A DNA stretch of 64,000 nt from Halobacteriovorax marinus SJ (GTDB lineage Bacteria; Bdellovibrionota; Bacteriovoracia; Bacteriovoracales; Bacteriovoracaceae): NCBI RefSeq assembly GCF_000210915.2, contig NC_016620.1:2232001-2296000 (forward strand). The letters run 5' to 3'. The stretch's first letter is position 1, and every line of letters starts with the position of its first letter. This document shows, one piece after another, positions 34,778 through 50,561 of the stretch. Position numbers and translations under genes: made by a program. A model generated the notes under the pieces. It saw only the letters and a program-made list of their open reading frames with translations, ran no database searches and was not told the DNA's origin.

Positions 34778-36493
34778 ATGAAAGGGGTAAAACTATTCAA
34801 GATTCTAATTGTTTTTGGTCTCTTGCACTCGGTTTATGCCAATAAACAGCTACTTAAAGACATAGAGAATCCAGATGATCTCTACCGCTTTAGTGCTGGC
34901 GCTATTGGAAAGCTCGAAGTTGAACGTGGTAATGACCTACAGAGCTTTATAAAAAACAGGATTACTCTTGAAACTTTTAACTATCTACTAAAAAGAGTAG
35001 ATGGTGTCTCTGCTCACCTCGCTGATAAACTCAGAAGTAGTCTCTCCAATGCTAGAGTCATCAATGGAGAAGAAGTCTATCAGATGTCTACCCTCATCAA
35101 TATTTACCACGGCATTAGTGTAAAGATAAGTGAGCTAAACACCTACGCAAAGCCTAGAGATCTAGATGACTTTCTTGAGGGTGAAGATCAATTGGCCATT
35201 GGAAGAGACCTAATTTGGCTAGCGACTTATTCAAAGCTCTACAATAGTTTTTACCAGAATTATCTAAACTATTATATGCACCTCAATTTAAGAAAGATCA
35301 TTAAGAACCTCTTTATAACCAAAGAGAATTCAGGTCAAAAAATTGAAGAACTCAAAGTAACGATTGCCCATATCTTAGAAAAGGATAATAGGAAAACAGC
35401 GAAGAAGTTCTTCAAAAAGTATATGACAATGAGAGATTCCCTTCTGAAGTTCAATATAGATATGAATTATGAAGTACAGCAGCTCATTGATCAAATTGAA
35501 GAAGACGGTGCTGTCACAAGTATCTTGTCAAAGGATACAATTAAAATTTCAAATTTTACTATTACAGATACACTTGCAAATTTCTTTGGGAAAGTTACAA
35601 ATGTTATAAGTGGTGTCTTTGGAAACCTTGTGGGTAAAGTAAGATGGCGTCACGGAAACTTCTACAAAGACAATATTGTTAAAGAAAAACTTTTAAAAGA
35701 GCTCAGGCCTCTAGATCTTCTCTTTGAGAAAACTCCCTTTGCCCTAACAGATACTTTTATCCCTGGGCACTTTGGTCACGCGGCTCTCTACTTAGGGACA
35801 GAAGAACAACTAAAAGAAATAGGACTTTGGGATAGCCCTATCATAAGACCGTATCAAAAGAATATTCAAAATGGTGAGATTATTGTTGAGGCGATTAGAC
35901 CAGGTGTTGGCCTTACAACGATGGAGAAATTTTTAGAAATAGACGAGATTGCCATACTTAGACAAGACACGATTCACTATGACTATGAAGAGATGCAACA
36001 AGTATATAAAAGAGCACTAGATCAAATTGGAAAGAAGTATGACTTCAATTTCGATGTAGAGACTACTGATAAAATTGTTTGCTCAGAACTTCTCTTCTTT
36101 GCTTACGGTAAGATAAATTGGCCGACAGTCTACATACTGGGAAGACCGACAATCTCGCCAGATAATTTAGCTGAGCTTGCGTTCTATGATAATACACCAA
36201 TTAATTTTGTTCTAAATTATTGGTCAAAGAAGCGAGGAACACTTATTGAAGGTAAGATTGAGGATCTCGCAAAGAATATAGGTTTTGCCATTGATCCAGA
36301 GAGAAGTGGACCTCATAAGAAGGCTTTTCACAAGAAAGACTATCGATGTAAGACGGTATTCTCTAACTCTCTTAGATCTTCTAGTAGAAGAAGTAGACGT
36401 ATACAATATAGACAATGTAAAACTGTCTATGAAAGAAAGGTCTACAATTCGGCCGAGAACTATAGAGAGTCTCACAATGGATACTTCAAATAA
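34778..36493 (+). CDS. Secreted YiiX/YebB-type permuted papain-like hydrolase
   Basis: 571 residues with a signal peptide (1-21). An unknown helical region (about 25-290) precedes the catalytic domain: G-H-F-G-H-A-A-L-Y-L-G (His near 333), E-A-I-R-P-G-V and K-I-V-C-S-E-L-L-F (Cys near 434). His before Cys is the circularly permuted NlpC/P60 order typical of the YiiX/YebB family of amidase/peptidase-like enzymes. The C terminus is very basic. Candidate target is peptidoglycan peptide or lipid amide, unproven. The next gene starts inside its last 17 bases. Confidence 0.75.
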   Translation: MKGVKLFKILIVFGLLHSVYANKQLLKDIENPDDLYRFSAGAIGKLEVERGNDLQSFIKNRITLETFNYLLKRVDGVSAHLADKLRSSLSNARVINGEEVYQMSTLINIYHGISVKISELNTYAKPRDLDDFLEGEDQLAIGRDLIWLATYSKLYNSFYQNYLNYYMHLNLRKIIKNLFITKENSGQKIEELKVTIAHILEKDNRKTAKKFFKKYMTMRDSLLKFNIDMNYEVQQLIDQIEEDGAVTSILSKDTIKISNFTITDTLANFFGKVTNVISGVFGNLVGKVRWRHGNFYKDNIVKEKLLKELRPLDLLFEKTPFALTDTFIPGHFGHAALYLGTEEQLKEIGLWDSPIIRPYQKNIQNGEIIVEAIRPGVGLTTMEKFLEIDEIAILRQDTIHYDYEEMQQVYKRALDQIGKKYDFNFDVETTDKIVCSELLFFAYGKINWPTVYILGRPTISPDNLAELAFYDNTPINFVLNYWSKKRGTLIEGKIEDLAKNIGFAIDPERSGPHKKAFHKKDYRCKTVFSNSLRSSSRRSRRIQYRQCKTVYERKVYNSAENYRESHNGYFK

Positions 36494-37421
36494 AATAGAT
36501 ATAATCAGACTAAATACCTCCTCTTACCAAGGGGAGGATTTCCATCAAAGAGAAAAAGAAGAGTTAGAATCAAAATTTCCAGTTAGCTACCAAAGTGAAG
36601 TTAACCCAAGTCGTGATCATATTCTTATTACAAATAGCTATAGTGATATTGATTCTCTAGATTTAAACGAAAAGACAAAACTCATTATTCACCCAAACTC
36701 AGGGTATGATAATTTTCATCTCGATATCGTTCAAAATTCTCCATGTCCAATAATTATAGGTAATGAGATTAGAATGAATGCCGTGGTTAACTACACAATC
36801 TCATGCCTACTAAAGCACTTAAATAAATTGAGTTCTTCAAAAGAGTGGGACAGCACAAGAACTTGGAATCGAATACTTCCAGAAAACCTAAAGATTCTAG
36901 TCATCGGTCATGGCCATATTGGAGAGAAAGTCACCTCCATTCTAAAAAGTCTTGGGGCCAGTCCTTTAATTTATGATCCCTATAAGGGATATACTGAATT
37001 AGATAATAATGGAGCACAGGTAGTTCTTGTATGTGCAAGTTTAAACCCTAAAAGTAAAGCATTCATTGATAAGAGTTTTCTAGATGCTCTCGACAGTAGC
37101 GCTCTTATTATCAATGGGGCAAGGGGGAAGATCATTGATCAAAATGCACTCATTGATTTTTTAAAACTAAATAAAGAATCTTTCGCCTATCTAGATGTCT
37201 TTGAAAAAGAGCCCTATTCAAGAGGCGAATTCAGTGACTTAGATAATATTTCTCCAACATCCCACATCGCAGGAGTGCATAATTCACTTAATTTCGATAT
37301 AATTAAATTTGAATGTAAAATATTAGAGAGCTATTTTTCTTCACCTTCAAGAGAGGATTTTGAAAGAGAAAACCAAGCTGCACTTTTACAAAATCGAATA
37401 AGAGAGAACTTTTTAATTTAA
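36477..37421 (+). CDS. D-isomer-specific 2-hydroxyacid dehydrogenase
   Basis: 314 residues from the ATG at 36477; the longer frame (from 36285) runs through the YiiX gene and adds a non-homologous basic segment. NAD-binding V-I-G-H-G-H-I-G (canonical GxGxxG has the second Gly as His-Gly here), catalytic Arg in N-G-A-R-G, Glu in D-V-F-E-K-E-P and His in S-H-I-A-G give the complete Arg-Glu-His set. Substrate cannot be told. The N-terminal catalytic half is divergent. Followed closely by the ureohydrolase gene (17 bases). Confidence 0.85.
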   Translation: MDTSNKIDIIRLNTSSYQGEDFHQREKEELESKFPVSYQSEVNPSRDHILITNSYSDIDSLDLNEKTKLIIHPNSGYDNFHLDIVQNSPCPIIIGNEIRMNAVVNYTISCLLKHLNKLSSSKEWDSTRTWNRILPENLKILVIGHGHIGEKVTSILKSLGASPLIYDPYKGYTELDNNGAQVVLVCASLNPKSKAFIDKSFLDALDSSALIINGARGKIIDQNALIDFLKLNKESFAYLDVFEKEPYSRGEFSDLDNISPTSHIAGVHNSLNFDIIKFECKILESYFSSPSREDFERENQAALLQNRIRENFLI

Positions 37422-37438: not shown

Positions 37439-38545
37439 ATGAGTAAAAATATAATCGATACAACGAAGAGCTTACTATGTCCTCCAGGTAATGGAGTCTT
37501 CACAGTCAATACTGCAAAAGAGAGAAAGGATAAACTCCATCAAGCTCTCTATAAAACAACCGCAAATATTGAGCAACTTTGGAAAGACTCAATTGAAGAG
37601 AATTTAGAGAGCTCATCTCCTCTTCTTTTGGGAGTTTGTAGTGATACAGGTGGCGGCATTCAAAGAGGAGCAAATTGGGGACCCCTCTTTCTTAGAAATA
37701 CTCTTCTTGAGGAACATCCTGAGCTCAACTATAAAGATATCGGAGATATTAGAGTCATCCCCCATCTGCTACACGATAAGTATCTCAATGATAAAACAAT
37801 AGAGAATTGTAGAAAGGCCCTCTACGATAATGGTGATTCTGAACACCCAGTGAGTGCACTAAGTCTTACTGAAGAATTCTGCGACCAATTATTTGAAAAT
37901 TTTCCAAAGAAAAAGCTATTTTCAATTGGTGGAGATCACTCTGTGAGTTATCCGCTTGTAAAGAGTTATTTAAGAGCAAAGAAGAAGCAAGGAATCAAGG
38001 CCGCAATCATACACTTTGATGCCCATACAGACCTACTCGTTGAAAGACTAGGAATCGATATTTGCTTTGGTAGTTGGTGTACGCACATTCTTCCCTTTCT
38101 AGACTCTCCTGAGTGCTTAATACAGCTAGGAATTAGATCAAGTGGAAAAGATCGCTCACATTGGGAAAATACATTTGGTGTTCAGCAATTTTGGGCCAGC
38201 GAAATAAATAAAGAGGGCGCTAGGAGTATTGCAAAGAGAATTCTAAATTTCCTAAAGAAAGAAGAGATTGATGAACTCTATGTTAGCTTTGATATTGATG
38301 CCCTAGATGAAACTTATGCCAGTGCCACAGGAACACCTGAACCAGGCGGACTAAATCCAGAACAATCTATATCAATAATTAAAGAACTTGCTAAAGAATT
38401 TAAAATCACAGGCGCTGATATGGTAGAAATTGCACCTCTAGTATGTGCAGACCATGTAAATCACCCTGAGCCACAAACAACCTTAAGTATAGGTGCGGCC
38501 ATTTCCGCATGCTTAATCGAGGCAATGGATAGTGACAATTCTTAA
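37439..38545 (+). CDS. Ureohydrolase (arginase/agmatinase/formimidoylglutamase family)
   Basis: 368 residues. All six Mn2+ ligands are present: G-G-D-H-S (His), F-D-A-H-T-D (Asp, His, Asp) and S-F-D-I-D-A-L-D (two Asp). An N-terminal extension of about 70-100 residues makes it longer than arginase or agmatinase (about 300). The substrate (arginine, agmatine, guanidinobutyrate or formimidoylglutamate) cannot be fixed from motifs. The stop overlaps the start of aat by 14 bases. Confidence 0.88.
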   Translation: MSKNIIDTTKSLLCPPGNGVFTVNTAKERKDKLHQALYKTTANIEQLWKDSIEENLESSSPLLLGVCSDTGGGIQRGANWGPLFLRNTLLEEHPELNYKDIGDIRVIPHLLHDKYLNDKTIENCRKALYDNGDSEHPVSALSLTEEFCDQLFENFPKKKLFSIGGDHSVSYPLVKSYLRAKKKQGIKAAIIHFDAHTDLLVERLGIDICFGSWCTHILPFLDSPECLIQLGIRSSGKDRSHWENTFGVQQFWASEINKEGARSIAKRILNFLKKEEIDELYVSFDIDALDETYASATGTPEPGGLNPEQSISIIKELAKEFKITGADMVEIAPLVCADHVNHPEPQTTLSIGAAISACLIEAMDSDNS

Positions 38546-39209
38546 TTTCCCTCCAATAGATCAAGCAGACGAAAATGGTCTTCTCGCCATTGGCGGAGAT
38601 CTTGAAGTTAAGTCTCTTTTAAAGGCCTATCAGAGTGGTATTTTCCCTTGGCCTATATCAATTGACTTTCCACTAGCGTGGTTCGCCCCGGACCCTCGTG
38701 GTGTTATTGACCTTAAAGACTTCCACGTCTCTAAGAGTTTTAAAAAATTCCTTGCACGAACAAATATGAAGGTTGAATTCAATCAAAACTTTGAGTCAGT
38801 CATTATGAACTGTGCAATGGCCAAGAGAAAAGATCAGGCCGGAACTTGGATTACTGACCAAATTATTGATAGCTATATAAATCTTCACCGAGAAGGCTAC
38901 GCCTATAGTGTGGAAACTTACCTCTATAAGGACGGAGTTAAAAGAATGGTTGGAGGACTCTATGGAACTTGCATTAGCAATTTCATCTCCGGAGAATCCA
39001 TGTATCATATCGAAGATAATGCATCCAAGTTGGCCCTCTACACTCTTATTGAATTCTTAAAAGCAAAAGGTATAGAGTGGCTCGACACTCAAATGGTGAC
39101 ACCTGTAATTAAATCTATGGGTGGAAAAGAGATTTCTAGAAGTGAATTTATGCAAAGGATTTCTCAATTAAATATGGATGCTTTGATAAAGCCAGACTTT
39201 AATACTTAG
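38532..39209 (+). CDS. aat: Leucyl/phenylalanyl-tRNA--protein transferase
   Basis: 225 residues from a GTG inside the end of the ureohydrolase gene. Aat attaches Leu or Phe to N-terminal Lys/Arg, making substrates for ClpS/ClpAP (N-end rule). Signature segments: G-L-L-A-I-G-G-D-L, G-I-F-P-W, W-F-A-P-D-P-R-G-V, T-W-I-T, Y-S-V-E and G-G-L-Y-G, then I-S-G-E-S-M-Y. Complete length. clpS/clpA are not adjacent. Its stop overlaps the end of the glycosyltransferase gene on the other strand. Confidence 0.95.
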   Translation: MTILNFPPIDQADENGLLAIGGDLEVKSLLKAYQSGIFPWPISIDFPLAWFAPDPRGVIDLKDFHVSKSFKKFLARTNMKVEFNQNFESVIMNCAMAKRKDQAGTWITDQIIDSYINLHREGYAYSVETYLYKDGVKRMVGGLYGTCISNFISGESMYHIEDNASKLALYTLIEFLKAKGIEWLDTQMVTPVIKSMGGKEISRSEFMQRISQLNMDALIKPDFNT

Positions 39210-39906
39210 TATTGAGACCTAGGCCTCTTTCATAAACTTTATTCATCGTCTCGTCAGAGACCTTAAGCGCAAAACAAATCTTCATAACGATATTTAAAAG
39301 TAACTGTCGATAGATCCCATTCTTATTAAAACGAATTGCAGAAGTCTTGCTGGTAAAAGGAAGAATTGTAGCTGGACATATCTTGTTTAACTTTTGACTC
39401 AATATTGTATCTTCAAAAATAACAACATTATCAATACATGGATTTAAAGAGAGAGTCTTCTTAAAGAAGATACAGTGATCCAAGTATATAATTGATCGAA
39501 GCTTTCCTCTCACTTCATTTGAATACCAAGAGGTGAATTTTAGGAGAGGGTGCTCCTCAATGAATTGATGATAGAAGCCTCCCCATGAAAGGCTATTTTT
39601 ATTTTCTATTAAGTGTTGAATCCCTCTTAAGTCTAGAATACTTCTAGGATGATGAAGAAGGACTAAATCACACTTAGATTCAAGAATTCCAATATTCAAT
39701 CTCTCAGCACGAGACTTTTGAGTGGTTCTAATGACTAATACATCATATTGGTCAAGAAGCTCTAGCGTACCATCTGTACTTCCACCATCAACGAAGATTA
39801 ATTCAATATTAGAGAGAGTAGATAATTGTTCTAAATTTTTCTTTAATAAATCTAAACTCAATTCATTAAAAACAGAAAAGATTATAGAGAGTTTTAATTG
39901 GCTCAT
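39199..39906 (-). CDS. Family 2-like glycosyltransferase
   Basis: 235 residues. The GT-A nucleotide-sugar fold is visible: L-S-I-I-F-S-V-F-N-E near the start, L-I-F-V-D-G-G-S-T-D-G-T (about 36-47), and A-E-R-L-N-I-G near 67. A DxD-like element is replaced by L-L-H-H-P-R, so activity or donor is uncertain. Its ATG overlaps the stop of the NuoI-like gene (ATGA), placing it last in the complex-I-like operon, although no functional link is obvious. Confidence 0.8.
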   Translation of the reverse strand: MSQLKLSIIFSVFNELSLDLLKKNLEQLSTLSNIELIFVDGGSTDGTLELLDQYDVLVIRTTQKSRAERLNIGILESKCDLVLLHHPRSILDLRGIQHLIENKNSLSWGGFYHQFIEEHPLLKFTSWYSNEVRGKLRSIIYLDHCIFFKKTLSLNPCIDNVVIFEDTILSQKLNKICPATILPFTSKTSAIRFNKNGIYRQLLLNIVMKICFALKVSDETMNKVYERGLGLNTKY

Positions 39907-40295
39907 TTTGCTTGAAGTAAATCAATTGTCCAGCTCGACTCTCCATGGGATGATAATGGTCGCTGATCAGTGAGAGTTAATATACTTGGAGAACAAACCT
40001 CTTCACAAAGACCACAGAAGATGCACTTTCTTACGTCTAAAAAGAGATGTTCTAATTTATCATTCTTATGAGTTGCCTCTAGGGCCGTTGTAGGACAAAC
40101 CGAAATACAATCTGAACAAGTGCCGCAACTATTAGTATTAACGAGCTCTGGTAAACCTCTAGAATTTTCATGAACCTTTTCACTGCTCTTATTTGAAAAA
40201 ACTGCTTTTACGGAGTTCATCAAAAAGATTCTCAAAGATTTAGTAATCGCTCTAGTGGTACTAATTGATTTATATAACTCGCGTTCAAGAATCAT
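39903..40295 (-). CDS. NuoI/HycF-like 2x[4Fe-4S] ferredoxin subunit
   Basis: 130 residues. Two cluster motifs, C-G-T-C-S-D-C-I-S-V-C-P and C-I-F-C-G-L-C-E-E-V-C-S, match NuoI (clusters N6a/N6b). An amphipathic N-terminal segment of about 45 residues corresponds to the part of NuoI that lies on the membrane arm. Third gene after the NuoB and NuoCD homologues, overlapping the latter's stop, so electrons would pass from here to the NuoB cluster N2. Confidence 0.85.
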   Translation of the reverse strand: MILERELYKSISTTRAITKSLRIFLMNSVKAVFSNKSSEKVHENSRGLPELVNTNSCGTCSDCISVCPTTALEATHKNDKLEHLFLDVRKCIFCGLCEEVCSPSILTLTDQRPLSSHGESSWTIDLLQAK

Positions 40296-41902
40296 CTATC
40301 CAACTCCCCTAGCACTATATTCATAGAAGAGAGAGATACCATGCAATCTTCCAATCTCGTTCCAGGCAGCATTCTAGAAAACGCCTGAGCACTTGAAAAA
40401 GAAGGTGCTTTAATCTTTACTCGGTAAGGACAATTAGAACCATCAGATTCGATATAGAATCCTAACTCTCCATTAACGGCTTCAATCATTGAATAGATAC
40501 TCTTCTCTTGAACTTTAAAGTTTAAAGTATTGCATTGAAGGTATTCCTTATCTACACGGACTTGTCCGGCAGGCAAGCTATCTAAAACTTGAGAGATAAT
40601 TCTTAGGGACTGTCTAATTTCTTCGACACGTACTAAGAAGCGGTCATAACTATCACCGTTTATTCCCAGAGGTATATCGAAGTCTACATCTTCATAGAAG
40701 TAATAAGGACTCACCTTTCTTATATCGTAATTAACGCCGCATGAGCGCAAGTTAGGTCCACTTACTCCCAAGTCAATGGCCTCATACGCGTTAAGCGGAG
40801 CTGTTTGTAGCCTTTCTTTCCAAAAGTCAGCTCTATTTAAATGCATTGAAAGCTCATTACTCAAAGACAAAATAGACTTTAACTCATCTAAGCAATCATT
40901 AATCCAACCTACCGGAAGCTCAAAGTTTAATCCACCAATAGAATTAAGATAGCTCCCTTTAGTTGAACCATTTAGTGCAGAAAATAAATTCGCTACTTTA
41001 TTACTTATTTTTCGACAAATTTGAACACCTTCAAAGATCCCTGTCGACTTAACCATAGAGGCAAGACATTGAGCGTGATCAGAGACACGTGCAAATTCAC
41101 AAAGAACCATTCGTATGGCCTTGGCTTTGTCTGGTATATCAATCTGGGACAACTCTTCAACGGCCTTACACCAACCGACAGAGTTGGCCGCACTAGAGAA
41201 GAAATTTAATTTTTCAATCAGAGAAGGAATCTGGGCATAAATTCTCTGCTCACAAGTTTTCTCGATTCCGCGATGTAGATAACCTACTTCAAAGTTTGAG
41301 CGTAAAATAAAATCGCCTTCTACTTCGAAATTCATTTTCATAGACCCCTTAAATTCAGGGTGAATTGGACCTATGGAAATAGTCTCAAGTAGATTCTCTT
41401 TATATTTTGGGAGAGATAAATTCTTTGAAAATGAAAATTCTCTACTTTTATAATCTTCATCTATCTCTAGTTGAAAGTCCTTTCTTAGGGGGAAGCCAAT
41501 TATTTCCTTAGGCGTAAGCAATCGATGCTCGCTATCTGGTCCAAAGGAAATACCAAACATCTCCCAAATCTCTCGTTCGCACCAATGGGCATTGGTCCAA
41601 ATATCACTCGCACTTGGGAGAATTTCTTGTCGGTCATTATCAAAGTTTAAAATAACTTGAAGCCTAAAATGTTCTTCCATATTTAAAAGAAAATAGCTTA
41701 ATTGAAAGCGCTTAGTAGCATTCTCCTTCTTGGAGTTATCAATAGCAATAATATCTAAGAGCATGATAAAGCCGAAAGTTTCTTTTAATTTTTTTAAAGT
41801 ACTCTTTAAATCCTTGGATTCGTCTAGGATTAAAGTTGTAACTCCACTTCTCTCACAAAGTCCTTCATTAAAAGTTAAGGAGAGCTCGTTTCTAATGCTC
41901 AT
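40292..41902 (-). CDS. Fused NuoCD-like (30 kDa + 49 kDa) complex I subunit
   Basis: 536 residues. Residues 1-150 are NuoC-like (W-C-E-R-E-I-W-E-M-F-G-I then F-P-L-R-K-D-F); residues 170-536 are NuoD-like (G-Y-L-H-R-G-I-E-K, G-V-N-Y-D-I-R-K, G-E-L-G-F-Y, ending G-E-L-D-R). No C-x-x-C nickel ligands, so it is not a hydrogenase. The residues matching Thermus Nqo4 His38 and Tyr87, which hold the quinone headgroup, are Lys185 and Phe234. Fusion of C and D is also known in enterobacteria. Lies between the NuoB and NuoI homologues with small overlaps on each side. Confidence 0.9.
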   Translation of the reverse strand: MSIRNELSLTFNEGLCERSGVTTLILDESKDLKSTLKKLKETFGFIMLLDIIAIDNSKKENATKRFQLSYFLLNMEEHFRLQVILNFDNDRQEILPSASDIWTNAHWCEREIWEMFGISFGPDSEHRLLTPKEIIGFPLRKDFQLEIDEDYKSREFSFSKNLSLPKYKENLLETISIGPIHPEFKGSMKMNFEVEGDFILRSNFEVGYLHRGIEKTCEQRIYAQIPSLIEKLNFFSSAANSVGWCKAVEELSQIDIPDKAKAIRMVLCEFARVSDHAQCLASMVKSTGIFEGVQICRKISNKVANLFSALNGSTKGSYLNSIGGLNFELPVGWINDCLDELKSILSLSNELSMHLNRADFWKERLQTAPLNAYEAIDLGVSGPNLRSCGVNYDIRKVSPYYFYEDVDFDIPLGINGDSYDRFLVRVEEIRQSLRIISQVLDSLPAGQVRVDKEYLQCNTLNFKVQEKSIYSMIEAVNGELGFYIESDGSNCPYRVKIKAPSFSSAQAFSRMLPGTRLEDCMVSLSSMNIVLGELDR

Positions 41903-42410
41903 TGGCCCTCACTCCTTTTCTCATACGCTCTTTTAATAAAGACATCCCATGAGCAATTTCTTTAGGACTTGGAGGGCAACCTGGAATGAATATATCAACA
42001 GGAATATCTTTAGAGATATCGGGTACTATATTAAAAGAAGAGAATGGACCTCCACTCATAGGACAAGCTCCGATGACCACTACCCACTTATCCTTTGGCA
42101 TTTCTTTATAAATATCTTTTAGCAATGGGTAGGTCTTCAGATTAACTGACCCACTAATGATGAGTAGATCACTATTTTGTGCCTCTACTCTTTCAGGAAA
42201 GAAATTATCTTCTGGATATTGATCATCGAAAATAGAGTAATACTCACTGGAGCAACAAGCCGTTGCAAAAGTAAAAGGCACTGTTGAGTGTGTATTCACC
42301 CAATTGTGGAATCTTTCAATAAATGTACTAGCTCTTGTCGTTAACGCGAGTCGCTCAATCCCTTCACTGGACTGAAGCTCATCAAACCTTAACCCAGATT
42401 TATTTACCAC
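41892..42410 (-). CDS. NuoB-like complex I subunit (cluster N2)
   Basis: 172 residues. All four ligands of the terminal [4Fe-4S] cluster N2 are present: tandem Cys52-Cys53 in T-A-C-C-S, Cys116 in G-A-C-P-M-S-G-G, Cys145 in P-G-C-P-P-S-P. The context resembles NuoB (P-V-D-I-F-I-P-G-C-P-P) more than hydrogenase small subunits. First gene of the B-CD-I operon; its end overlaps the NuoCD start by 11 bases. NuoA and the membrane subunits are absent here. Confidence 0.9.
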   Translation of the reverse strand: MVNKSGLRFDELQSSEGIERLALTTRASTFIERFHNWVNTHSTVPFTFATACCSSEYYSIFDDQYPEDNFFPERVEAQNSDLLIISGSVNLKTYPLLKDIYKEMPKDKWVVVIGACPMSGGPFSSFNIVPDISKDIPVDIFIPGCPPSPKEIAHGMSLLKERMRKGVRANEH

Positions 42411-42473: not shown

Positions 42474-43994
42474 CTATTGAACGATAATATCCCTCGAACC
42501 TTTTACGTAATTGCCGAAGTTCTTCCAAGTAATGTCTTGAGGAAAGATCGACAACTCTCTGCGTCTTTCTTGGTCACAGACATAACCGTCTCCCTTATCT
42601 CTTACCCATGAATAGATCTTCTGGTGACTACCGCCTCCACCATGATCGTATTGAATAAAGCGGTAATGATCTTGAAAGGAGCTACTAAGCCCTGACTGAA
42701 TATTTATACTCATATCAAATGCCATGTCTAACTCAGAAGTCGTACAACTCTTCATTCTCTTATTGAATGAATAGAGCCTTGTTCCTGCACTTGTCATTGG
42801 ATTCTTCATCCATGCCTTTCTAGAACATGAGTATATATAGCCGGAGTCTTCTGTATTAAAGAAAGAAGTGAGGTAGCTAAAGAACCACATTCTCTCTTTA
42901 TTAGTATTTATACTGGTATCTCGAACAAACTTCTGGCAAGTCTTGTATCTATCTTTGTACTTTACGTAGAAGTGCTTGAAGAAGATGGAGAAATCACTAA
43001 TCTCTAGGGCCTTTTGCTCTACCTGCTCGCGTGGTACTTCATTTCTTTCAGCATCAATAACATTGCCACTAAAGGTATCTGATTTAGCAACAATTTTCTG
43101 TCTCGTACGTGACGTGGCCTTCGCCTTACCGGCCTTAATTTTATCATGATTTCTTATTGCCGTTATAGTCTTCCAAATATAATCATAGAGAGAGTGACAG
43201 CTATTTCTTATGGTTTTCATTTCCTTAAACTTAAAGAGATGTCCTTTATCTAGAGCGATCTTAAAAGCTTCTTTTGGACCAATATTTCCAATTATTCTAT
43301 AGCTCGGCATAGGCTCACTTCCAGAGAGCTTTCTACCATTTGAATTCTGCATAAAAGCACTGGCCTCACCCCAATCAACCAATGTTTTTAAATGATTGAT
43401 TGAGCGAACTTTAGAGAGTGTAGGGTCCATTGGATTAACTCCAATAAGTAGGAGCCTCGACTGCCAACGATTAAACCCCTTGCATGGATAAGTTGCACAG
43501 TACTGTAATAGCACGCCACCAACCACTCTCACTCGCTGAGACTTAGTAGGAGTTATTTCAAATTTTTGAAAATATCTCTGCTTACCAAAAACAATAATTT
43601 TTTGTTGTGTTCCAAGTTGATCTAAGAGCCTTGGAATAAAACCTTCACTATAAGGTGGACGCGATAGAGTGCCAGAGTACTTTTTCCATACGTCTTTTTG
43701 ATCGCAGAAATTATGAGTCCTAAGCAACTTCCCTGAGCGCAAGTCCAACTCGTATTTACTCAGTGAGCCAATAGGAGTTGTCATAACAAAATTAATCGAA
43801 TTATCTGTTTTAGAGGAAAAAGGAACGAGGTCGAAGAAAGGGTGAATGAGAAACTCCCCGTCCTGGCTTCTATCGTTATAAAGTTTAGATGTGGCCATCC
43901 ATGCAGGCTTCGCTACTACTGGCTCAATCTTCTTGGTGTGTTTTGCACATGCCGAAATAAAAATCATGAGACATAGAAGAAATGTCTTTTTCAT
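42474..43994 (-). CDS. Large lipoprotein, unknown
   Basis: 506 residues. Signal sequence with lipobox I-S-A-C (Cys near 16), so lipidated after export. The mature chain is basic, contains about 14 cysteines and no recognised catalytic motif. A short Gly/His segment (D-H-G-G-G-G-S-H) near residue 460 stands out. Upstream of and separate from the complex-I-like operon by about 60 bases; its promoter region is shared with the divergent tRNA gene. Confidence 0.65.
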   Translation of the reverse strand: MKKTFLLCLMIFISACAKHTKKIEPVVAKPAWMATSKLYNDRSQDGEFLIHPFFDLVPFSSKTDNSINFVMTTPIGSLSKYELDLRSGKLLRTHNFCDQKDVWKKYSGTLSRPPYSEGFIPRLLDQLGTQQKIIVFGKQRYFQKFEITPTKSQRVRVVGGVLLQYCATYPCKGFNRWQSRLLLIGVNPMDPTLSKVRSINHLKTLVDWGEASAFMQNSNGRKLSGSEPMPSYRIIGNIGPKEAFKIALDKGHLFKFKEMKTIRNSCHSLYDYIWKTITAIRNHDKIKAGKAKATSRTRQKIVAKSDTFSGNVIDAERNEVPREQVEQKALEISDFSIFFKHFYVKYKDRYKTCQKFVRDTSINTNKERMWFFSYLTSFFNTEDSGYIYSCSRKAWMKNPMTSAGTRLYSFNKRMKSCTTSELDMAFDMSINIQSGLSSSFQDHYRFIQYDHGGGGSHQKIYSWVRDKGDGYVCDQERRRELSIFPQDITWKNFGNYVKGSRDIIVQ

Positions 43995-44289: not shown

Positions 44290-46638
44290 CTACGATGCTT
44301 GCTTAGTTTTATTGAGATAATTATTGATATAGAAAGAAATATCTTCCTGGGCCTGCTCAGGAAGGTCAACGAACATGAGTCCAATCCCCTTAGGGCGAGA
44401 ATCGGAGATATTTTTTATCTGCGCGACACAATGGAAAGGATTATCTAATGCTCCTGCAGAAAAGAGAAGCCTTCCCTTCTTATCAACTGCAAAGTCTTCA
44501 TCTAACTTATTAAGCTCTAAGAAGATTCCACCAACACTTAAACTTGTACAGTAACCCTTATATTCTTCACCATTGATTTCAAAAGTAATCATTTCATAGA
44601 ATGGCACTCGCATTGAAGATCTCTTAATGAAGTAGCGAATATTTTCACCGCTGCCGTGGGTTGAAACAGGTACAGATAATTCAAATATATCTGCCTTAGC
44701 TTTATAAAGATCATTTCCTTTCTTGATCTTTACTCCTACATCTAGCTCTCCATTAATTTTCATATGATAAACTTCTGAAAAGTTATAAGGCCCTGATGGT
44801 TCTTCACCATCTCTTTGAATCATCCAGTAACATTCATTTGAGACTTCAAAAGCATCACCAATTAAGCGATTAAGTTCTTCATCCTCTTCTTCCTTAGAAG
44901 TATTTAATTGAATGATCTGATTCTCTTCTTCAACCTTTTTGAACTCTTCGATCTTGATCATAAGAGTAGCTTCACGGTCCTTAACTTCTTCAAGCTCTTG
45001 AACCTTTTTAGAGTAATTATCTTTTGCTCCGTCAACCTTGGCCTTTAATGATTCAATAATAGCATCGGTCTTAGCAGTCATCTTAGAGAACTTAGCATTT
45101 CTCTCTTTAAACTCCTGCTTTAATTTCTTGTAAGAATCACTCAATTCGTTATACGCAACCTTATACTTAGCAGTTCTCTCTTTTAATTCATGATACTTTT
45201 CAATTAACTGCTTATTGTCTGATCTTAAGTTTGAAATTAACTGATTATGCTTAAGTGTCTCGCTATTACTTTCTTCACTAGACTCATTAAGTTCTTCATT
45301 TTTTACAAGTAAGTCCTGCACTCTATTTTTAAGTTTATTAATCTCTTCTCTAGCAACTATCAGCTCATCTTTAAGATACTTAGTCGCACTATCATCTCTA
45401 TTCTCTTTCTTATCTTTTTGTGCAAGTAGTTTAGCCTCTAGAGTTGAAAACTCTTTCTCTAGCTTCTTATGCTTGTTGGCGAGATGAATGTATTTATCCT
45501 TAAACTCTCCACTGTCACTATTTTCCTGACTATGGATTTTTTGAATGCTTTCTAAGTCTTCAAGTTTTTGAATAAGAATAGCATTTTCATCTAAAATATT
45601 TTTATACTTATATTCAAAGTCATCTCTTTGTCTTGAGATACTATCAATATCCCCTAGGTCTTTAGAGTGTACATTTTCTTTCTCTGCTATATCTTCACTG
45701 TGACTTCGCTTGAGTTTTTGTAACTTTAAATTATAGAAATTCTCTTGTTCTTTTAGTTCTTTAGTAAGTAGAGCAATCTTCTTCTCTAAGAGCTCTTTCT
45801 CACCACCGCTAGGACCATGTAGAAAGTAATCCATGGCCTTTGATAAGAGTTGCTCTGAGTGCGTTTCTCTGTGGGAATGTTCATCTCTTCTTTGTAACAA
45901 GCTCTTTAGCTCTTCTCTCTGTTCCTTCTCAACTTTTAAGGCGTAAGCTAAAGATTTATTCTTTTCAATGATTTGGAAATTCTCTCTTTCAAATGCTTGA
46001 AGCCTTTTTATCTCATTACTTTGTTCAGAGACAAGAGCTAAGTTTTCTTTCTTATGATTCTCTAAGATTGCATCCATATTTGCGAGAGTATCAACATGCT
46101 GCTTTTCAATTGTAATTAGCTCTTGATTGAGTGACTTATTTTCTATTCTCAGAGAATTTATAATCTCTTCAAAGTCTTGATTAACATAGCGAAGACCACT
46201 AAGATCCTTCTCTAATTGAGCTCTTTGGACTCTTTCACTTTCTAAAGTCACCTCTAAGATATTACTGACACTCTCCTCTTCAACAAAGCTCGAAGACTCT
46301 GCAACAGCAGACTTTTTCATATGCGCTAGTAAATATTCATAGTCACAATCTCTTTGATTAGTGAACTCACCAGCTGGTAATTTATGAGGAGGAGTGAAGC
46401 TTGGTTTATCTCGTTTGGCAGCTTCTTTGAATTGATAGTTTGTATCTTGAAGAACTTTAATATCTTTTACTAGTATCCACTCCCTTACTCTAAGATCAAA
46501 AATATAACTCTGCCCATTGAGCTCTTCGGCCTCAACAAACTCGACGATTTCGAAAATATCACAATATTTCAAAACCTTATTTGATCTGTGTACGAGATAA
46601 TACTTTGTAATTACGGTCCTCCATATATTGTAATCCAC
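44290..46638 (-). CDS. Long coiled-coil protein with GYF_2-like and PilZ domains
   Basis: 782 residues. An N-terminal domain of about 70 residues is followed by coiled coil from about 120 to 600. Near 620-670 a GYF_2-like module reads W-M-I-Q-R-D-G and G-P-Y-N-F-S-E-V. The last 110 residues are a PilZ domain: R-S-S-M-R (RxxxR) and S-L-S-V-G-G (the family's [D/N]xSxxG, with Ser first). PilZ domains bind c-di-GMP; the altered first residue may weaken this. Cytoplasmic; perhaps a structural or positioning protein responding to c-di-GMP. Convergent with the tRNA gene. Confidence 0.8.
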   Translation of the reverse strand: MDYNIWRTVITKYYLVHRSNKVLKYCDIFEIVEFVEAEELNGQSYIFDLRVREWILVKDIKVLQDTNYQFKEAAKRDKPSFTPPHKLPAGEFTNQRDCDYEYLLAHMKKSAVAESSSFVEEESVSNILEVTLESERVQRAQLEKDLSGLRYVNQDFEEIINSLRIENKSLNQELITIEKQHVDTLANMDAILENHKKENLALVSEQSNEIKRLQAFERENFQIIEKNKSLAYALKVEKEQREELKSLLQRRDEHSHRETHSEQLLSKAMDYFLHGPSGGEKELLEKKIALLTKELKEQENFYNLKLQKLKRSHSEDIAEKENVHSKDLGDIDSISRQRDDFEYKYKNILDENAILIQKLEDLESIQKIHSQENSDSGEFKDKYIHLANKHKKLEKEFSTLEAKLLAQKDKKENRDDSATKYLKDELIVAREEINKLKNRVQDLLVKNEELNESSEESNSETLKHNQLISNLRSDNKQLIEKYHELKERTAKYKVAYNELSDSYKKLKQEFKERNAKFSKMTAKTDAIIESLKAKVDGAKDNYSKKVQELEEVKDREATLMIKIEEFKKVEEENQIIQLNTSKEEEDEELNRLIGDAFEVSNECYWMIQRDGEEPSGPYNFSEVYHMKINGELDVGVKIKKGNDLYKAKADIFELSVPVSTHGSGENIRYFIKRSSMRVPFYEMITFEINGEEYKGYCTSLSVGGIFLELNKLDEDFAVDKKGRLLFSAGALDNPFHCVAQIKNISDSRPKGIGLMFVDLPEQAQEDISFYINNYLNKTKQAS

Positions 46639-46722: not shown

Positions 46723-47751
46723 ATGAGCAAATCTGAAATAAGTCTAAAAATTAAGAAATTTAACTTAAAGTTAGAGCAAATTGACTCCCCTAAAGAGTTT
46801 AATAACTACTGTGACGACTTCTTCAATTACCACTATCAAGAACTCGAAGAGGCGCTCACCTTAGAGAGCTCTGATGAAAATCTCTACTTAACAGAACGAC
46901 TAAGAGAAGAGGCCTTAAATACCAGTTGGTATGATTACTATCAAATAATTAAATTCACTAAGGGAAAGAGAGTTATAGATATTGGCTCAGCCTATTCTAA
47001 GGGAACCCTGCTTGCTCAATGTCTTGGCGAAGAAAGTTTTCACTCTATTGAACTAGTGGAAGAGAGAATCAAGTGGGCCGTTGATACCGCTCAAGCACTA
47101 GGTCTAGATACAACTCAATTTATAATTGGGGATGCCCTAGACTTCGACTATCAAAGCTATGACTACTTCTTTATTTATCAACCTACAGGCTTCTTTCTCT
47201 CCAAATTATTAAACGAGCTAACTCAATATACTCATGCAAAAATTATCTCTATAGAGTCCCATGGTGATTTAATCACCCGCTTTAAATATGATAATAGACT
47301 TAGTGGCCCACAAGTAATTTTAGAGCTAGATGCTAGTAGACACGACCAAGGACTCTATGAATTTCAAATTTTAAACTGTGAATTAAGAAGAGAGCTCATA
47401 CTTGAATATCAATTGTATAACTCTACCTATCTCCAAGTTGATGCTTACAATAGTGTTTACTCAAATTTTAGCTATATTCTAAATTTAAAGAATCTCTTAA
47501 TTGACTATATCGAAGGTCACCCTAGTATTGATTTAAATGGAGTAAGAATAAATATAGAGAGAGAATTTGAAAATTTAAAAGTGAGAAGTTCTCTTACTGA
47601 TTTTGAAAAAGAATATATTGATAAAGACCATCTTGTATATGAACAAAAAAGTCAGCGAATCTTAAAGGTCATAACGGCGCCCGAAGAAGCCCTTGAACTA
47701 AGCTCTTCGGGTAGAGTGGAAAGAAGAAATCTTAACTTGCCTTCTTCTTAG
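46723..47751 (+). CDS. SAM-dependent methyltransferase-like protein
   Basis: 342 residues. A Rossmann methyltransferase core lies at about 85-175: R-V-I-D-I-G-S-A-Y-S-K-G (motif I), S-I-E-L-V-E-E-R (acidic end of strand 2), I-G-D-A-L-D-F (motif for adenine binding) and D-Y-F-F-I-Y-Q-P-T-G. The P-T-G in place of P-P suggests a non-nucleic-acid target, but the substrate is unknown. Flanked by two large coiled-coil genes; its end overlaps one of them by 20 bases, tail to tail. Confidence 0.7.
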   Translation: MSKSEISLKIKKFNLKLEQIDSPKEFNNYCDDFFNYHYQELEEALTLESSDENLYLTERLREEALNTSWYDYYQIIKFTKGKRVIDIGSAYSKGTLLAQCLGEESFHSIELVEERIKWAVDTAQALGLDTTQFIIGDALDFDYQSYDYFFIYQPTGFFLSKLLNELTQYTHAKIISIESHGDLITRFKYDNRLSGPQVILELDASRHDQGLYEFQILNCELRRELILEYQLYNSTYLQVDAYNSVYSNFSYILNLKNLLIDYIEGHPSIDLNGVRINIEREFENLKVRSSLTDFEKEYIDKDHLVYEQKSQRILKVITAPEEALELSSSGRVERRNLNLPSS

Positions 47752-50419
47752 TATAATTTGCTAGAGTATAGACATTATCTTTTAGAGAATTAACTTCTTC
47801 TTGTAATTTTTCAATATAGTCATCATTACTTTTCAATTTGCTCTCTTGAGCGCCATTCTTAGCAATCATATCATCTATTAAGTTAATATAACGAAGCTTA
47901 GTTTTTTCTAGCTCATTTATAAGAATAATTTGCTGATCTCTATCAACATTGAGTTCTCTATTATTATTAGTTAATGAGTTGTATTTGACCTTCACTTCAT
48001 TGAGTTCATCTTTCTTTCTTCGAATATTCTCTTTCATAGAAGAAATATTTAAATTGATATCAATTAGATTTGAATTGGAGTTATTAAACGTACTCTTTAA
48101 ATCGCCAATCTCTATTTCTAAGCGTCTCTGCTCTTTTACAAGTTCACTAGCGGCCGCAGATTTTGACTTAATTAGCTGCTCTCTTGTTTGAATCTGAGCG
48201 ACTAACTTCTCTTTTGCTACTTTATAATCACTAATTGCAGATTTTGATTTCTTAAGATTTGATTCAATACTAAGATATTTTGCATTCAACTCAGAATAGC
48301 TTTCCTTATCCTTTAGAATTTCACTCTCAAGTCTTCCCTTTTCTCTTTCCAAGTTAATAATTTCTTCTTCTAAGGATTTGCGATTTGTCATGGCCGCATT
48401 AGAGAGCTCAGAAATTTCTAACTTCTTTCCTCTAATCTTTGGAATTTGTTTCTCAAGAATATCTCTCTTACTTCTAATTTCTTGGGCATACCGAGTAACA
48501 CTCTCGAGTTCACCCTGCAGTGAGCTTACAATATTTTTCTGTGTTGAGAGCTCACTTTCAGACTCCTGCAAAGATGTTGTAAGTAAGCTTACTCTTTGCT
48601 CTAGAGATATTTTCTCGTCCATCATCTTAAGCTTTTCACTCTTCAGTTCACTAGATAATTGTTGAAAATACTTACTCTTTTCTTCCATCTGTGAATATTG
48701 AGTATCTAGCTCTTGTATTTCTCGTGAAATTTCTCTCTTCTCTTTAATTGATAGCTTTGCTTTATACTTTTGCTCACTAAACTGCGACTTCAAAGAATCA
48801 AGTTTAGAGAGTTTCTCGTCCCTCTTAACTCTTAGACCAAGTAATTGCTCTGATTGTCTATTAACATTAGACTGAATATTTTTAAGTTCAACTTGATAAA
48901 CCTCAATAGACTTTTGAATTCTTGAAATCTCTTTGCGTAAGCTCGATATTTTTTCTAGATTAACAACCTTCTCAAGAGTTATATTTTGAATGCTCTTTTC
49001 GAGAGTATCATTCTCATACGACGTCTTAACTAACTCTTTGTCTAGTAACTCTATTTGCCCAAGTGATTTATCGTTTTCAACTTTAAGTTGATTTAGCTTT
49101 CTAGAGAGTACACTTCTCTGTAATTTACTTTCCTCAATTGTTGCAAGTAAACTCTCACAAGTTCTTTTAAGGTTAAAATTGTCATTTTCTAATTGATCTA
49201 ATTTACTAAGCTTTAATTCATATACTTTAGTGTATTTGTGAATTTCTTGCTTTCTCTTTATAAGGACTGCTTCTAAAGTCGATTTCTGCGTTTCATACTC
49301 TGAAATGGATTTCTGTGCTTGATATATCTTTGACTCATGAGACTCTACAATTAATCTCTTAGACTCAACATCACTCTTTAGAGACTTTAGAGTTTCCATT
49401 AACTCAAAAACAAGTGATTCTTGCTCATTAAACTCTTTAAATAAGCTTGCTTTTCGATGAGAGTAATCACTAGAGCTAATCTCAATCTCTTGAATCTCTT
49501 TGTTTAAGATATCTTTTCGAGATTTAATTTCTTCGAGTTCCTTCTCACTCTTTTTATATTCAACAATTAATTGGTCTAACTCGGAAGTTATTTTACTTTG
49601 CAGAGATCTAGTCTGCTCAATATCCTCTTTCAATAGATCTATCGTTTCATTCTTGTGATCAATTTCTTTATTCTTATAATCTATTTCACTTAAGAGTGTA
49701 TTTATACTTTCTTTATTTTCGACAACCTGTTTCTTATAGCTTGAAATTAAATCGAGATTAGCATTATAGATACTTTCGGCCTCATTCATATCTCTATGAA
49801 TATTTGCCAATTTCTCTGTTAAGGCACCATTTTCCTTACTAATACTATTAATCGTCTCTTCACTTTCGCTCTTTCTCTGCTCCAGTCTAAGGAGTTCTCT
49901 TTCTAGTGACTTATTCTCTAATTCTAGTTGTCCTCTCTGGCTCTTAAGTCCATCCAGTTCTTTAGAGAGATTATTTAAATTCCCTTTTACTTCACAAAGA
50001 GATTTTCTATAATTGCCATTCTTCGTTTTTTCAAACTCAAGTTTCTGATTAATATCTTCTTCAATATTTTTTAATTTTAAATAATCGCTCTTAGCATTCT
50101 TTAGAGCTTTAAGTTCTTTCTTTCTTACCTTTTTAAGAGTAGTGATCTCACTTTGACTACCTTCTTCACTCTGAACTTCAATATCTGAAGGCTCAATCAT
50201 AGGTGTTTCAACTTCTTTCCCCTTGCTCTCAAATTTCTTCTTATCAAACTTAGGTGGTGTTGGGATATTCTCATCTAAGGAATAATTAAAGTCGAATGCT
50301 TGCTCGGCCTCAATGATAGGCGGATAAACACTCCAAGATTGATCTTCAAAAGTTTGATGACCACTCTCTTTTGATATATTTTTTAATTTTTCTTGTAGAT
50401 TAAACTTCTTCTTCGTCAT
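47732..50419 (-). CDS. Very long coiled-coil protein, unknown
   Basis: About 895 residues from the ATG at 50419, which has GAGG six bases upstream (the first ATG, 50431, is what supplies that GAGG). After about 100 residues of low-complexity acidic N terminus, nearly the whole chain is heptad coiled coil, Glu/Lys/Ser/Leu-rich, to the end. There is no Walker A motif, hinge or signal peptide, so it is not SMC or RecN. Likely a cytoplasmic filament or scaffold. No homologue recognised. Confidence 0.75.
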   Translation of the reverse strand: MTKKKFNLQEKLKNISKESGHQTFEDQSWSVYPPIIEAEQAFDFNYSLDENIPTPPKFDKKKFESKGKEVETPMIEPSDIEVQSEEGSQSEITTLKKVRKKELKALKNAKSDYLKLKNIEEDINQKLEFEKTKNGNYRKSLCEVKGNLNNLSKELDGLKSQRGQLELENKSLERELLRLEQRKSESEETINSISKENGALTEKLANIHRDMNEAESIYNANLDLISSYKKQVVENKESINTLLSEIDYKNKEIDHKNETIDLLKEDIEQTRSLQSKITSELDQLIVEYKKSEKELEEIKSRKDILNKEIQEIEISSSDYSHRKASLFKEFNEQESLVFELMETLKSLKSDVESKRLIVESHESKIYQAQKSISEYETQKSTLEAVLIKRKQEIHKYTKVYELKLSKLDQLENDNFNLKRTCESLLATIEESKLQRSVLSRKLNQLKVENDKSLGQIELLDKELVKTSYENDTLEKSIQNITLEKVVNLEKISSLRKEISRIQKSIEVYQVELKNIQSNVNRQSEQLLGLRVKRDEKLSKLDSLKSQFSEQKYKAKLSIKEKREISREIQELDTQYSQMEEKSKYFQQLSSELKSEKLKMMDEKISLEQRVSLLTTSLQESESELSTQKNIVSSLQGELESVTRYAQEIRSKRDILEKQIPKIRGKKLEISELSNAAMTNRKSLEEEIINLEREKGRLESEILKDKESYSELNAKYLSIESNLKKSKSAISDYKVAKEKLVAQIQTREQLIKSKSAAASELVKEQRRLEIEIGDLKSTFNNSNSNLIDINLNISSMKENIRRKKDELNEVKVKYNSLTNNNRELNVDRDQQIILINELEKTKLRYINLIDDMIAKNGAQESKLKSNDDYIEKLQEEVNSLKDNVYTLANYTKKKAS

Positions 50420-50561
50420 GAAGATCCTCATTTTGGTAAATTTACTCTTTAAACTTATCGAGGAGAGGTATGACTAAATTGAATAATGGAATAATTTAAA
50501 TAGATTTAGGATATATTTGCCCGTAACAGAGTATTTCACTCTACTACGGACAATAGTAAAT

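Follow-up and report, generated by a model that had tools for sequence, protein, structure and literature searches.

We analysed a window of 64,000 nucleotides (C1:2232001-2296000) of the Halobacteriovorax marinus SJ genome, which comprises two contigs with 3,437,906 bases and is 100% complete. An operon on the minus strand opens with a lipoprotein gene, continues with homologues of the complex I subunits NuoB, NuoCD and NuoI (B, CD and I below) and ends with a glycosyltransferase gene (Table 1). Overlaps of 11, 4 and 4 bases join B to CD, CD to I and I to the glycosyltransferase. An earlier note, made from the sequence alone, had described a NuoB with four N2 cysteines, a fused NuoCD and a two-cluster NuoI overlapping end to end, and the sequence together with Pfam and NCBIfam searches confirmed this description: the matches of B, CD and I were unambiguous and far above chance, with NuoD and NuoCD as the best-scoring models for CD. 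The range then given for the three genes, 40292-42410, contains B and CD and leaves NuoI outside, and the glycosyltransferase is not the only other operon member, as the lipoprotein gene stands at the head in nearly every relative. Matches from a consensus promoter scan were not above those of shuffles.

Table 1. Genes of the operon, with coordinates in the 64,000-nucleotide window.
Feature	Coordinates	Strand	Evidence
Lipoprotein, 506 aa, operon head	42474..43994	(-)	lipobox Cys16; pyrophosphatase fold, residues 48-262
NuoB-like protein, 172 aa, GTG start, four N2 cysteines	41892..42410	(-)	PF01058, 2e-20
Fused NuoCD-like protein, 536 aa	40292..41902	(-)	PF00346, 1e-64; PF00329, 7e-28
NuoI-like protein, 130 aa, two [4Fe-4S] motifs, 8 Cys	39903..40295	(-)	Fer4 families; NuoI/HycF-type models
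Family 2 glycosyltransferase, last operon gene, not a core part	39199..39906	(-)	PF00535, 4e-11

The cluster ligands of the module are complete: B reads CCCC at the N2 positions in all five aligned genus members, and the window NuoI has 8/8 cysteines of its two [4Fe-4S] motifs. In the window CD, His38 is replaced by Lys and Tyr87 by Phe (residue names such as these follow T. thermophilus and E. coli numbering); intact relatives keep the His and the Tyr. CD adjoins I directly, with no E-F-G between them, and no membrane-arm gene is adjacent to B-CD-I at this locus. Group 4 [NiFe] hydrogenases and formate hydrogenlyase (Ech, Hyc, Hyf) have related B, CD and I subunits, and HycE and NuoCD are paralogues (PMC7050243). 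We excluded a [NiFe] hydrogenase, there being no CxxC pair anywhere in the window CD.

Among the loci of relatives compared, a glycosyltransferase follows the module only in Halobacteriovorax and one g10 member. Being absent from nearly all other genera, the enzyme was rejected as a core functional partner. Its place after NuoI is taken in g24 and g4 (L062, L065, L075, L080) by a 358-368-aa fatty-acid-desaturase-like protein, and a gene of that size follows the module in G009, G047 and G055. Next to the operon, an agmatinase-like gene and aat (leucyl/phenylalanyl-tRNA transferase; 37439-39209, plus strand) form a conserved syntenic block, convergent to the module in most relatives. Beyond them lies a D-2-hydroxyacid dehydrogenase frame (36285-37421, plus strand, TTG start) that shares about 200 bases with a C92 peptidase frame, and the real start of the dehydrogenase is probably downstream of this TTG. 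On the other side, 44290-46638 (minus strand) encodes a 782-aa coiled-coil protein with a C-terminal PilZ domain, whose N-terminus resembles the GYF-like N-terminus of the TPR protein described below, and 47732-50431 (minus strand) encodes an 899-aa protein that is almost entirely coiled coil and has no clear family.

Within the class, 109 of 129 genomes encode the lipoprotein, against 1 of 240 elsewhere in the phylum; across 29 relatives, the lipobox Cys16 and eight further cysteines are invariant. Its predicted model (mean pLDDT 72.8) matched the family I inorganic pyrophosphatase fold over residues 48-262 (Foldseek, 2e-8), with a Z score of 18.5 and 2.7 A over 179 residues in a fold comparison. 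All seven matches in a PDB profile search were pyrophosphatases, at weak E-values of 0.02-1.9. The N-terminal domain thus has its fold in common with soluble family I pyrophosphatases, whereas the window protein differs from them in being a lipoprotein, in its eight further invariant cysteines, in an extra C-terminal domain and in the absence of the metal-binding Asp65, Asp67 and Asp70, which were missing from 29/29 sequences in a register taken from the weak profile alignment. Because these three residues are missing, the lipoprotein too is probably a dead enzyme. Folded alone, the C-terminal domain (pLDDT 65.7) had no Foldseek match at E ≤ 0.001.

Other genera of the family have the same locus, usually with the convergent aat and agmatinase-like genes as neighbours, and in some cases it reads lipoprotein-B-CD-E-F-G-I, a full peripheral arm. 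Intact E and F stand beside CD in five genomes (G014, G031, G083, G089 and G028) and at three further loci; the E, F and G of G014 gave strong matches to PF01257, PF01512 and NuoG domains, and the F and G of G005 are degenerate. A NuoD tree, which is unrooted and contains several long branches that leave its inner order unsure, gathered the module NuoD into one clade (support 100/100), bearing out the suggestion that the set might form a clade of its own. Within this clade the intact members have the short branches. Oligoflexia complex I branches closest to it, and the ordinary NuoD of the genome falls elsewhere in the tree. B-CD-I is, with high probability, the peripheral arm of a decayed second complex I, with E, F and G surviving in relatives, and not the orphan three-gene module that it had been taken for.

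An ordinary complex I is encoded separately. Genome profile searches located a second NuoD at C1:2.564 Mb in an operon nuoB-C-D-I, and an ordinary nuoA-H-J-K-L-M-N set at C1:28-36 kb with one NuoH and three NuoL/M/N. With both present, B-CD-I is not the missing piece of the ordinary set, and we rejected that candidate; a nuo operon lacking exactly B, CD and I, which the earlier note had named as the case against a separate module, was not found, the ordinary set having its own nuoB-C-D-I. A search for an NADH module elsewhere in the genome, made with NuoF (PF01512), gave no match, and the ordinary set accordingly resembles the 11-subunit type, that is, complex I-like enzymes lacking NuoEFG, as in Desulfitobacterium, in which Q-module function is thought to be kept (PMC11238625). 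The NADH module is absent from these enzymes as it is here, but the window module has lost its quinone ligands, and the 11-subunit type fits the ordinary nuo set of this genome and not the window module.

Directly behind the ordinary nuoN, with a one-base overlap, lie seven membrane genes (C1:35.8-41.1 kb) that encode proteins of 107, 298, 155, 93, 505, 268 and 334 aa and match A-H-J-K-L-M-N in order and size. None of the seven proteins had a significant Pfam match, and iterated HMM searching that started with the membrane genes of the genus found no match in any other genus at E < 1e-3; we relied instead on synteny, profile comparison and intermediates. The same slot in G014, G083 and G089 holds NuoA, H, J, K, L, M and N of about 120, 350, 175, 98, 660, 493 and 460 aa, and profile comparison of the intact A2..N2 with canonical A..N gave 97-100% on the diagonal. 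A second NuoH (PF00146) lies about 7.5 kb behind the first in these three genomes and in G093, at E ~1e-105. Its E-value is 5e-93 in G020, 1e-34 in G066, 4e-28 in G033, 8e-17 in G054 and 2.5e-4 in G056, with no match in the window's genome.

The slot, seven genes in the pattern small-large-medium-small-large-large-large followed by the TPR gene, recurs in most genomes examined. H2 of the window's genus is connected through a weak chain (g1 to g10, 49%; g10 to g33, 97%; g33 to g14, 100%), and its L2 is linked, again weakly, to the intermediates at 75%. For the other five genes of the window's genus no sequence similarity to complex I could be detected, and A, J, K, M and N are named there from position, order, size and estimated number of transmembrane segments. 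Of 91 cross-genus tests, 35 placed the right subunit first, where 13 were expected; the tests are non-independent and draw their signal mainly from the less decayed sets. From order, size and position, together with the weak sequence chain for H2 and L2 only, we infer that the seven membrane genes of Halobacteriovorax encode complex I subunits; in g14 there is no mistaking the second membrane arm, which retains nearly all of its pump residues. The observation that nuoA, H, J-N and nuoEFG are not adjacent to the module stands, as far as adjacency goes, and a candidate second membrane set is present elsewhere in the genome. The pump would have decayed, and not been missing from the outset.

The protein encoded behind the seven membrane genes (1060 aa) begins with a GYF-like region, apparently crosses the membrane once and contains TPR repeats. 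It was found in 82 of 95 genomes, including some from which the second arm is absent, and for that reason may have a role of its own. The cytoplasmic part of this protein (L082:7165-10347) carries DKTxVI/EKTVV motifs whose Thr is invariant in the alignment, possible phosphorylation sites. Our literature search found nothing linking it to gliding machines.

Comparison across the family revealed decay in all degrees. G014, G083 and G089 retain all the proton-channel residues tested in L, M, N, K, H and A and lack the NuoJ Tyr. G020 has already lost many proton-channel residues despite the strong match of its second NuoH, and its operon passes from CD directly to I with the motif GPCHPATQG, E-F-G and His38 both being lost. 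Loss of His38 goes with loss of the NADH module: the residue is kept in 8/8 sequences with E-F and lost in 12/12 without, the twelve being those with a readable His38 motif (p = 8e-6 counting sequences, 0.018 counting genera). Only some of the lineages without E-F-G have also lost Tyr87 and the N2 cysteines; the cysteines are missing from about ten lineages that retain the operon. Halobacteriovorax itself has Lys38, Phe87 (Tyr in G069) and no E-F-G, its N2 and NuoI cysteines are all complete, and the transmembrane Glu of K2 look lost in a weak alignment. Across this class of mostly predatory bacteria, a second complex I is stripped stepwise of its NADH, quinone and proton-pumping parts.

The loss of the NADH module coincides with the presence of other NADH dehydrogenases. 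Na+-NQR has been noted before in Bacteriovorax marinus (PMC4014512), and the NqrA gene of this genome lies about 6 kb past the window end. NqrA is present in 68 of 95 family genomes, and all 16 NqrA-negative high-quality genomes have either an intact second arm (G014, G083, G089, G028 and G093, where the second NuoH alone was seen) or, in the remaining eleven, an additional complex I in which the distance from D to H fits E-F-G, with the gene order read directly in L063, L068 and L076. Because of this pattern, E-F-G loss is best explained by takeover by another NADH dehydrogenase, although the evidence is a correlation; it also supports the suggestion that Na+-NQR may be the main NADH dehydrogenase here. 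The third complex I in L063, L068, L071, L073 and L076 has E-F-G between D and H, and NuoC and NuoD are fused in several of them.

The decayed subunits remain under selection. Within the genus, dN/dS was 0.01-0.12 for the ordinary arm, 0.05-0.10 for B and CD in closer pairs and 0.10-0.48, mostly 0.1-0.3, for the second arm, values that are approximate because dS is near saturation. All frames are open at full length in five genus species, with within-genus identities of 44-80% for the module proteins and 27-74% for the second arm overall (27-53% for its L, M and N). No ordinary NuoH was found in, for example, G009, G043, G060 and G085, which keep the seven-gene arm and lipoprotein-CD-I, or in G011 and G015, which keep the arm. 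Since several relatives without an ordinary complex I retain it, the decayed arm has a function of its own, and since the stripped complex stays under selection, it probably does a new, non-respiratory job.

Arm and module also tend to occur together. A genus tally gave 32 with both, 6 with neither, 2 with the module alone and 2 with the arm alone (p = 1.4e-4), made by hand with g6 judged by spacing only and g18, whose members differ, counted twice. The module occurs without the arm in g24 and g47, and the arm without a detected module in G036 and G013, both incomplete genomes; G018 has lost both and retains the lipoprotein and the TPR protein.

Compared with 14-subunit complex I with a fused NuoCD (Oligoflexia, Campylobacterota, Acidobacteriota), the system has the same N2 and NuoI cysteines and, in intact relatives, the same subunit set and the same order, B-CD-E-F-G-I and A-H-J-K-L-M-N. 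It differs in that the window's lineage is without the NADH module and the quinone ligands and seems to lack most proton-channel residues, in that gene order ties a lipoprotein and a GYF/TPR protein to it, and in that the arms are encoded at two loci. We found nothing relevant in the literature on a second or degenerate complex I in these bacteria.

The best overall explanation, to which we assign a probability of roughly 0.6, is that the system is a former second complex I and now a largely non-catalytic envelope assembly. B-CD-I would be the peripheral arm of what was once an NADH:quinone oxidoreductase, encoded behind the lipoprotein gene at its separate locus, and A2-H2-J2-K2-L2-M2-N2 would be the matching membrane arm, encoded directly behind the ordinary nuo genes and followed by the GYF/TPR membrane protein. 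In the presence of another NADH dehydrogenase, mostly Na+-NQR, E, F and G, the quinone ligands and the proton-channel residues would have been lost, and purifying selection would keep an assembly that spans the membrane, with B-CD-I on the cytoplasmic side and the lipoprotein, perhaps also the TPR protein, at the other end. That B-CD-I, the membrane arm and the lipoprotein are parts of one complex is itself inferred. Its present role would most likely be that of an envelope scaffold or conformational relay and not of a respiratory enzyme, and the Fe-S clusters remaining in Halobacteriovorax may be structural or may sense redox state. We put the scaffold role forward tentatively, at somewhat less than even odds.

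The main rival is a remaining redox role, because the genus keeps all twelve cysteines: the three Fe-S clusters in I and B could conduct electrons to a non-quinone acceptor, or they could sense redox state, with or without the membrane arm. Conservation of the four N2 and eight NuoI cysteines in five genus members and most genera, at identities down to 44%, speaks for such a device, but the module has neither His38 nor Tyr87, there are no genes for an electron donor or acceptor module near it, and the N2 cysteines have disappeared from so many lineages that retain the operon; we consider it unlikely. A dying relic, a redundant second complex I on its way out with no present function, would account for the very fast divergence of the arm, the shrinking subunits and the outright loss of arm and module from some genomes, yet it sits poorly with dN/dS well below 1, with full-length frames in 5/5 species and with the survival of the arm in many genera, even where the ordinary complex I has been lost. 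We regard it as improbable, and as slightly more improbable still that B-CD-I is an alternative peripheral arm that docks on the ordinary membrane arm and replaces its B-C-D-I under some condition. The ordinary arm is indeed present in the same genome, with the second-arm genes following without a gap, but relatives have a dedicated second membrane arm, and module and second arm are kept in genomes without a detected ordinary complex I.

It is common for a single dead enzyme to take on a new job. We know of no case in which a whole respiratory machine lost its chemistry stepwise with its subunits kept, and our literature search found none. The former second complex I described here could be such a case: a 'pseudo-complex I' with dead electron-transfer ends and proton channels, together with a dead pyrophosphatase-fold lipoprotein and a GYF/TPR protein, might be kept across Bacteriovoracia as an envelope-spanning scaffold or conformational machine, even without a real complex I, a proposal that we rate just below an even chance. 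In these bacteria, family searches count the complex I paralogue as a respiratory enzyme and miss the membrane arm completely. The class offers a gradation that begins with an NADH-oxidising enzyme, to all appearance intact, and ends with a remnant that is hardly recognisable, and it can therefore be asked which parts of complex I serve assembly and which serve catalysis.
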